Of a stretch of 42,091 nucleotides of DNA, positions 13,159 to 13,932 are shown piece after piece. Position numbers and translations under genes: made by a program. Origin of the DNA: an uncultured Psychroflexus sp. (GTDB taxonomy: Bacteria; Bacteroidota; Bacteroidia; Flavobacteriales; Flavobacteriaceae); contig CAJXLO010000010.1 in assembly GCA_913056525.1 (NCBI GenBank), positions 1 to 42,091 on the forward strand. The letters run 5' to 3'. The notes below the pieces were generated by a model, which did no database searches, was not told where the DNA came from, and was given only the letters and a program-made list of their open reading frames with translations. The first letter of the stretch is position 1. Every line of letters starts with the position of its first letter.

Positions 13159-13347
13159 ATGATTAAACATTTCACCTCACTTTACCTCATTTTTTTAATA
13201 AGTTATAATGTATAAGCTCAATTTGGATATGGAGACCCCGATGATATAAGGCCACTCAAAAAAAGAACTTTACTTGTAGAGTTAAAAGAACATGATAAAA
13301 AAAACTGTAAAAAAGTATCGAAGGAGAAATCAGGAAAAATTGCATAA
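13159..13347 (+). pseudogene. decayed secreted-protein gene with a stop inside the signal peptide
   Basis: From the ATG at 13159 the frame gives a signal-peptide-like start, MIKHFTSLYLIFLISYNV, then TAA at 13213-13215. The same frame then continues AQFGYGDPDDIRPLKKR and on to a TAA at 13345-13347. With one sense codon in place of the stop this would be a normal signal peptide with a V-x-AQ cleavage site, so the stop is a nonsense mutation. The 3' end is truncated: the last codons run into repeat unit A (GCATAAAAAAAGG), whose bases supply the final stop. No function is recognised. Confidence 0.6.
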
Positions 13348-13405
13348 AAAAAGGAGTGTTTTAGCTCCCTAGTTATTAGCGTGGACTGGACTTCCCTCGA
13401 CCTGG
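13341..13405 (-). repeat. repeat unit A: degenerate copy of tRNA 3' end plus terminator
   Basis: The plus-strand string GCATAAAAAAAGGAG, a weakened GGAG...CTCC hairpin, and then TTAGCGTGGACTGGAC match the bases that follow and form the 3' end of the tRNA at 13860-13932 (GCATAAAAAAAGGAG ... TAGCGGGGACTGGAC). Similarity stops after GGAC, where TTCCCTCGACCTGGCTCGGG begins, a GC-rich imperfect palindrome unlike the AT-rich surroundings. This is the most decayed of three copies. Confidence 0.6.
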
Positions 13406-13450
13406 CTCGGGATAAACTTCTCGTCCATCATTGATCAAATCAAAAAAATT

Positions 13451-13552
13451 ACATAAAAAAAGGAGCCTTTTAGCTCCTTAGTTAGTAGCGGGGACTGCAC
13501 CGAAGCTTCGGTGGAACCAGTGTCCGCCTCAGGCGGATATGAGCCTCTTGAG
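13451..13552 (-). repeat. repeat unit B: tRNA-fMet 3'-half remnant plus terminator, with two palindromes inside
   Basis: It starts ACATAAAAAAAGGAGC with a 7-bp hairpin (AAGGAGC / GCTCCTT, 13460-13479). It then matches the intact tRNA in blocks: TAGCGGGGACTG, GAACCAGTG, TATGAGCC and GAG. Between the blocks sit two palindromes: CACCGAAGCTTCGGTG (13498-13513, perfect) in place of the T-loop bases, and TCCGCCTCAGGCGGA (13523-13537, 7-bp arms) in place of the variable-loop/anticodon-stem bases. The matching ends at about 13551, next to the stop codon of the GIY-YIG gene (13553). It cannot fold as a working tRNA. Confidence 0.65.
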
Positions 13553-13813
13553 TTAATAATCGTCAATATTTTTTTTCATCCATTCTCTTCCATGACCACT
13601 CTTTAAATATTTTTCGCGATTCATTGCTTGCTTTTTTGTTGTATAAACTTCTACATGAATTACTTTCCAAGGTCGATATCGTGTTGTAAATCCTTTTTTT
13701 CCCAGGCTATTGTGTGATTGGAATCTGGTTATCAGATCTGAAGTGTAACCAACATAATGTTTTTCTGATGAAAGAGATTTTAATACGTAAACTGCATATT
13801 CTTCCATTTTCAT
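13553..13813 (-). CDS. GIY-YIG nuclease domain protein
   Basis: This 86-residue protein is a stand-alone GIY-YIG nuclease domain of the YhbQ/UPF0213 size class. YAVYVLKS provides the GIY strand and HYVGYTSDL the YIG strand, R30 (LITRF) is the catalytic arginine, and NREKYLKSGHGREW the helix with the metal-binding glutamate. A start at the second methionine (13807) is equally possible. It lies directly downstream of tRNA-fMet and its terminator, in the same direction, and its stop codon abuts a partial copy of the same tRNA (unit B). This bracketing suggests it inserted next to or through the tRNA 3' half. Its natural substrate is unknown. Confidence 0.85.
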   Translation of the reverse strand: MKMEEYAVYVLKSLSSEKHYVGYTSDLITRFQSHNSLGKKGFTTRYRPWKVIHVEVYTTKKQAMNREKYLKSGHGREWMKKNIDDY

Positions 13814-13827
13814 TGAATAAAATGCAT

Positions 13828-13854
13828 AAAAAAAGGAGCTGTTCTGCTCCTTTT
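13828..13854 (-). terminator. rho-independent terminator after tRNA-fMet
   Basis: The 9-bp stem AAAAGGAGC / GCTCCTTTT has a 6-base loop; on the minus strand it is followed by a run of U residues. It lies 5 bases beyond the tRNA 3' end. Two altered copies of this hairpin are found in repeat units A and B. Confidence 0.8.
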
Positions 13855-13859
13855 ACTTG

Positions 13860-13932
13860 TAGCGGGGACTGGACTCGAACCAGTGACCTTCGGGTTATGA
13901 GCCCGACGAGCTACCTACTGCTCTACCCCGCG
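13860..13932 (-). tRNA. initiator tRNA-fMet (anticodon CAT)
   Basis: The minus strand folds as a tRNA: acceptor CGCGGGG / CCCCGCT, D-stem GAGC/GCTC, anticodon loop CTCATAA (CAT) and T-arm CTGGTTCGAGTCCAG, with discriminator A at 13860. Two features point to the initiator and not the elongator. Position 1 (C) faces T at position 72 as a mismatch, and the anticodon stem has three consecutive G-C pairs (GGG/CCC). No CCA is encoded, so it must be added after transcription. A terminator follows at once. Confidence 0.93.

Follow-up and report, generated by a model that had tools for sequence, protein, structure and literature searches.

The GIY-YIG nuclease gene beside tRNA-fMet in the window, the whole stretch of 42,091 nucleotides that was analyzed from an uncultured Psychroflexus sp., is, with moderate confidence, one of a family of minimal homing-type elements in Bacteroidota that spare their target and to which we ascribe putative mobility and cleavage from comparison of sequences. 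The unit would consist of the nuclease gene, part of the adjoining gene (here tRNA-fMet) and a terminator. Each lineage appears bound to one tRNA, and some lineages to one spot within it. A unit would settle in such a way that one complete tRNA gene is left, while the other copy becomes a remnant.

A GIY-YIG gene between intact and broken tRNA-fMet

The features of the locus are as follows.

13859..13932, minus strand: intact tRNA-fMet (CAT), the presumed host target gene (ARAGORN; Rfam RF00005, 66.3 bits)
13827..13853, minus strand: intrinsic-terminator-like hairpin with T-run, between tRNA-fMet and the GIY-YIG gene (sequence, fold, member of repeat D1)
13553..13813, minus strand: GIY-YIG nuclease gene, 86 aa (PF01541, 62 bits; alignment; model pLDDT 91.8)
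about 13486..13555, minus strand: unit B, a tRNA-fMet remnant that runs to the 3' end from about position 20 of the tRNA and overlaps the GIY-YIG gene at its stop codon (repeats, similarity search, alignment by eye)
13523..13537, no strand: palindrome TCCGCCTGAGGCGGA in place of the 3' side of the anticodon arm of unit B (palindrome search)
13498..13513, no strand: second palindrome of unit B, CACCGAAGCTTCGGTG, in its T-loop region (palindrome count)
13453..13480, minus strand: terminator copy after unit B (sequence, repeat listing)
13337..13392, minus strand: unit A, an older, shorter copy of the tRNA 3' end and terminator (similarity search, E 9e-6)

On the minus strand the order is thus tRNA-fMet, terminator, GIY-YIG gene, unit B remnant with a second terminator, and unit A. 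The initial annotation had described this arrangement, and it is borne out by ARAGORN, PF01541, Rfam and similarity matches. The terminator together with the tRNA 3' end recurs at 13443-13504 (E 2e-7) and at 13337-13392 (E 9e-6); the 1.97-Mb draft genome, which is 80% complete, has no other non-self match with an E below 0.05. The second copy, unit A, is a short decayed copy, as had been proposed. Unit B had been described as homology that ends right at the GIY-YIG stop codon, near the anticodon arm; it does begin at the stop codon, but in an alignment by eye TAACTCAAGAGGCTCATA at that codon pairs with TAGCTCGTCGGGCTCATA of the tRNA, which takes the remnant back to about position 20 in the D-arm, earlier than claimed. 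Unit B contains two GC-rich palindromes, TCCGCCTGAGGCGGA and CACCGAAGCTTCGGTG, and the terminators after the intact tRNA and after the remnant are similar. A chance origin of the repeats was rejected because the genome has no other strong non-self matches and the arrangement recurs elsewhere. In an Rfam scan of the window the tRNA alone passed the gathering threshold, with no group I or group II intron RNA, and beside 20 GIY-YIG loci nothing reached that threshold except one tRNA and one trp leader. By eye, unit A (window 13337-13440) and the fMet remnants of G002 and G018 (L141, L142) have in common a stretch like GACGAGAAGTTTA...GAGC that precedes the tRNA 3' end.

The window protein is modeled as a single GIY-YIG domain (pLDDT 91.8) without a separate recognition domain. 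The nuclease domain is intact, with 62 bits to PF01541 and conserved motif residues; the Tyr, Gly, Arg and Glu at the motif positions are invariant in an alignment of 28 relatives. In a Foldseek search against the PDB, the four matches with E ≤0.001 are all Slx1 (best E 1e-4), NMR structures of UPF0213 (YhbQ-type) proteins take ranks 5 and 11, and I-TevI appears at rank 22 with an E of 1.4. The predicted fold is nearer to Slx1 than to I-TevI, and resembles those of Slx1 and the single-domain UPF0213 proteins. Slx1 is a repair nuclease of branched DNA that acts with a partner; to our knowledge it has no tRNA association, which sets the window family apart from it.

Recurrence and target specificity of the GIY-YIG genes

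The window protein matches 30 of 40 relatives, and the fetched loci, from which two matches (G025:C28 and G028:C4) were left out, contain 131 GIY-YIG ORFs. A tree of 120 rows, made after exclusion of 11 ORFs shorter than 45 aa, separates one clade of 76 small GIY-YIG genes of Psychroflexus and other Bacteroidota (support 97/97) from 44 other rows; it rests on 82 columns, with an unsettled bootstrap and some long branches that are unsure. We counted a gene as associated if an intact same-strand tRNA lies within 300 bp or if a remnant scores at least 34, a strict cut-off in that 258 shuffled regions gave a 99% point of 29, although their maximum of 37 places single cases within the reach of chance. 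By these scores alone (some tRNA labels on the tree are hand-set), 55 of the 76 rows within the clade are associated with a tRNA or a remnant vs 0 of the 44 outside it (Fisher p 5e-17, a guide only because the rows are related). As a background, arithmetic from the 39 above-cut-off tRNAs in G009 gives a share of about 0.4% for same-strand positions that are no more than 300 bp from a tRNA. The 55 rows come from 22 genomes. Of the other 21 rows in the clade, several are tandem copies with remnants below the cut-off, and seven form a subclade beside or inside protein genes.

The common layout is tRNA, terminator, GIY-YIG gene, a remnant that starts at the stop codon or just past it, and a second terminator. 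Distances from the upstream tRNA to the gene concentrate at 43-63 bp, and remnants follow the stop codon at fMet, Asn, Phe, Arg-tct, Leu, Val and other loci. The same picture is given by 27 named loci found through the protein alone, which span Psychroflexus, Flavobacterium, Gracilimonas, Epilithonimonas, a Chitinophaga MAG and others: 16 have a tRNA-Met 37-98 bp upstream and 21 a Met remnant behind the gene. The idea of a cassette thus holds insofar as GIY-YIG genes are systematically tied to tRNAs with displaced fragments, in 22 genomes and at least 10 tRNA species, and show tandem stacking and empty orthologous sites.

Subclades mostly track the tRNA, as the labels need 24 changes on the tree vs 63.6 when shuffled, with 0 of 200 shuffles as low. 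The fit is imperfect: Arg-acg needs three changes, and Ala, Phe, Arg-tct, Arg-tcg and Asp two each. Two Asn clades correspond to two points of tRNA-Asn, with remnants from about position 7-8 in one and from the T-arm in the other, and both types are stacked in G001 and G007. The Arg-acg and Arg-tcg classes are mirror images, in which a copy of tRNA nucleotides 1-22 lies upstream of the gene, whose own stop codon falls inside the D-loop of the intact tRNA. Duplication of the tRNA 3' half, which the initial annotation had put forward, is therefore not the general rule.

The replaced-arm remnants of L029, L030 and L121 are probably misannotated by ARAGORN as tRNA-Phe(aaa) and tRNA-SeC(tca). Many of the 44 rows outside the tRNA clade (e.g. 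L073, L086, L109) have long flanking direct repeats in which dispersed motifs such as GTCATTCCGACGATAGGAGG abound. At about 1470-1750 of L032 an exact 13-nt inverted repeat, ACCCCGTTAGATA, flanks the GIY-YIG gene on both sides. In a sister clade, the GIY-YIG genes of L024, L025, L026 and L120 interrupt 23S_rRNA_IVP-like genes and are bracketed by exact inverted repeats of 8-12 nt (ACCTGTGAAATA type; without a shuffle control). The interrupted halves in L024 and L120 match PF05635 positions 2-45 and 48-106, so the 23S_rRNA_IVP-like gene is split cleanly. In the sister-clade loci L060 and L061, the GIY-YIG gene lies between a short copy of the 5' end of an NAD-epimerase gene and the full epimerase gene.

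A phage or plasmid origin was rejected: a search for such a vehicle gave only 4 Listeria phage and 2 PLSDB records, at ≤40% identity, and viral contigs gave no confirmed match. In open-licence PubMed Central articles, in which absence is weak evidence, we found no description of tRNA-invading GIY-YIG elements.

Occupied and empty sites, stacking and decay

Among 24 Psychroflexus genomes tRNA-fMet was detected in 22. Four have a GIY-YIG ORF next to it, decayed in one case and truncated by a contig end in another. Behind tRNA-Asn a GIY-YIG gene is found in 7 of 21 genomes, and G013 is an eighth with a weak relic at +667. The gene upstream of tRNA-Asn is common to 18 of the 21 genomes, 6 of them occupied and 12 empty. 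The downstream gene is common to four genomes, and its ORF starts at +82 in the empty G005 and at +1040 in G007, which carries two units, is the sole occupied genome with the shared downstream gene and has about 900 bp extra compared with G005. Related genomes therefore have both occupied and empty orthologous sites at the same tRNA, a comparison that the initial annotation had called for, and occupied and empty alleles at one locus are among the features of free-standing homing endonuclease genes. The refuting conditions named beforehand did not overturn the idea: gene-less remnants and empty sites exist, as expected from gain and loss, but the association is overwhelming.

At the tRNA-Asn locus of G007 the outermost terminator resembles that of the empty G005, and the terminator next to the intact tRNA differs, which is the pattern that displacement predicts. 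Two unrelated terminators are also present at the fMet locus of G009. At the Asn locus of G009, on the other hand, the terminators are identical, and since those of the window are alike as well, tandem duplication also occurs. The earlier proposal that the tRNA is restored by the 3' half of the cassette itself is consequently unproven, as the terminators differ, as predicted, at G009 fMet and G007 Asn but are identical at G009 Asn and alike in the window.

P. curvus has eight tandem units spaced 359-368 bp, in an array that starts beside an exact 43-nt copy of tRNA-fMet positions 32-74. The array of G012, on a different contig from the intact fMet gene, is the same as that of P. curvus CAK1W. 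Exact 43-nt copies of these positions also lie 26-33 kb from the intact gene in G001:C1, G012:C31 and G013:C51, and are probably the ends of integrase islands. Could the units themselves be ordinary tRNA-targeted tyrosine integrase islands with the GIY-YIG gene as a passenger? The copies of the same tRNA some 26-33 kb away in G001, G012 and G013 would suit such an origin. However, the GIY-YIG units are only about 360 bp and without any other gene, and their junctions are unlike the 43-nt site and vary by tRNA; the integrase and single att core in the 3' end of the tRNA that mark such an island are lacking, the GIY-YIG gene being the only gene of the unit. We regard an island as very improbable. 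The term "integrating cassette" does not fit either, as there is no sign of an integrase-like reaction and the integrase att sites at tRNA-fMet are separate.

Twelve tandem arrays were inspected by eye; a broken gene is outermost in 5, innermost in 1 and absent in 6, and this bias of decay toward the outermost gene is as predicted by stacking near the target. Upstream of intact tRNAs at L045, L054 and L130, the 5' part of the tRNA is repeated in arrays that have the same hairpin but no GIY-YIG gene; the repeats measure about 127 bp for fMet in G009 and about 80 bp for Asn.

The GIY-YIG genes are under purifying selection: of 15 pairs, 11 gave a dN/dS of 0.05-0.20 and 4 are saturated, and dS between genomes is near saturation. 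Such selection would also be expected if the nuclease were a domesticated gene that serves the host, e.g. in amplification or repair of tRNA genes. A precedent is SegB, a free-standing GIY-YIG endonuclease of phage that lies beside tRNA genes and can drive tandem amplification of a tRNA segment (PMC13096335). The window gene likewise adjoins a tRNA gene and is tied to tandem amplification, but SegB is a phage gene whose amplified segment has a full tRNA, and the available passages of that source describe neither a displaced remnant nor a hairpin. Domestication is improbable in view of the patchy occupancy of orthologous loci and the decayed copies; in the Psychroflexus loci, moreover, the tRNA copies of the units are broken, and functional tRNA dosage is not raised.

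The hairpin of the remnants and the proposed spread of the unit

The remnants are not the plain fragments that the cassette idea assumed; they carry an element-specific hairpin. In fMet remnants TCCGCC-spacer-GGCGGA stands in place of the 3' side of the anticodon arm. By eye, the arms are exact in 17 of the 21 named loci with a Met remnant, compensated in one (L212, TCCGAC/GTCGGA) and decayed in three. They occupy one tRNA position across genera, with nine kinds of spacer of 2-4 nt, and are also present in remnants of elongator Met (L209, L211). Variable spacer lengths would be easier to reconcile with a hairpin than with a fixed dimer site.

A sample of 395 genomes of the phylum Bacteroidota was searched with a Met pattern and with an Asn pattern. 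The Met motif matched in 15 of them (reversed control, 0), with a GIY-YIG gene near the match in 13 of the 15 genomes and at 15 of 20 loci examined. All nine matches of the Asn pattern, in which the hairpin was left unspecified, are palindromes, found in 5 of the 395 genomes and built of 7-nt arms of three kinds with paired substitutions. They have a tRNA-Asn in nine of nine loci and a GIY-YIG gene in eight, and the gene is alongside in four of the five genomes. Strict GC-rich palindromes after the gene occur in 24 of 67 tRNA-class genes, two of which (L042 and L081) may be terminators, vs 0 of 50 others, a count from which three epimerase rows were excluded; the background is 2 in 400 kb, and 3 in shuffled sequence. 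Remnants of Phe, Arg-tct and Val have, by eye, hairpins with shorter stems or longer loops that fall outside the strict count. For TCCGCCTNAGGCGGA a dispersed palindrome family was rejected, as the fMet locus holds 8 of its 9 copies in G009 and 1 of 2 in G000.

A simple homing model leaves this conserved hairpin unaccounted for. We considered, as a tentative alternative, that a structure-specific, Slx1-like nuclease acts on the hairpin of the remnant, as a cruciform or single-stranded, with the tRNA homology serving as the address for recombination and the gene-less remnants being non-autonomous copies. The constant position of the TCCGCC/GGCGGA arms across genera (17 of the 27 loci found by protein, plus the compensated one), the nine palindromes of nine with three arm sequences from a pattern blind to the hairpin, the excess of palindromes after tRNA-class genes over background, the Slx1 structures as top Foldseek matches (E 1e-4) and the sister clade within protein genes, bracketed by short inverted repeats, all speak for it. 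Conversely, 43 of the 67 tRNA-class genes have no strict palindrome (several have looser, uncounted hairpins by eye), and the Asn palindrome doubles as coding sequence for the last residues of the protein, and part of the signal could stem from coding constraint. In its broadest form, which we consider rather unlikely, these minimal mobile genes of Bacteroidota would be a mobile system of an Slx1-like GIY-YIG nuclease and its cognate hairpin in a broken tRNA copy, and the landing genes (tRNA, or others in the sister clade) would stay functional. A coupling of a small nuclease gene to short hairpins is known from the REP palindromes with their RAYT transposases; that enzyme is different, and the hairpins described here lie inside tRNA remnants and are not dispersed.

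In the homing-type reading that we favor, the nuclease, whose gene comes immediately after the tRNA terminator and may be expressed through read-through, would cut a tRNA locus without the unit. Recombination repair would then use the homology of tRNA and terminator from a unit-bearing copy, and the gene with a new tRNA part would be copied in during repair, with which the anatomy is consistent. New units would pile up at the same place and older ones decay; the observed tandem arrays could stem from misaligned repair between repeats.

By analogy, the element behaves like a WHO element, without a claim that it is one. WHO elements at FBA1 in Torulaspora and Lachancea have a nuclease gene that directly follows an essential gene and precedes a displaced 3' fragment of it; they form tandem clusters with pseudogenes, retain a working FBA1, and their resistance allele was shown experimentally (PMC7282813). 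Shared are the nuclease behind an essential gene, the displaced target fragment (the gene lies between full target and fragment in the window and at other loci), the tandem units, the decayed copies and the working gene that is kept. As described in that source, WHO elements are eukaryotic, with an endonuclease of the LAGLIDADG/intein type plus a zinc finger and a protein-coding target, whereas the elements here are bacterial, with a single-domain GIY-YIG protein, tRNA targets and a hairpin in the remnant; the LAGLIDADG and zinc finger homology of HO/WHO endonucleases is absent from the window protein. A resistance allele in the intact tRNA was likewise not seen and is rejected, as intact tRNAs are identical in occupied and empty genomes: the tRNA-Asn of the occupied G007 equals that of G014 and G020, and the window tRNA-fMet equals that of G001 from position 20 onward. 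The WHO account of immunity therefore fails here. Self-immunity might instead come from a site partly outside the tRNA, from weak cutting of carriers or from the hairpin as true substrate.

If this reading is true, selfish units of 360 bp that require no integrase or intron repeatedly colonize tRNA genes across a large group of bacteria. With these units one could readily study how a nuclease gene can spread by way of an essential gene and leave the cell alive, and what the conserved hairpin adds; they would also account for clutter that is misannotated as tRNAs, e.g. tRNA-Phe(aaa) and tRNA-SeC.
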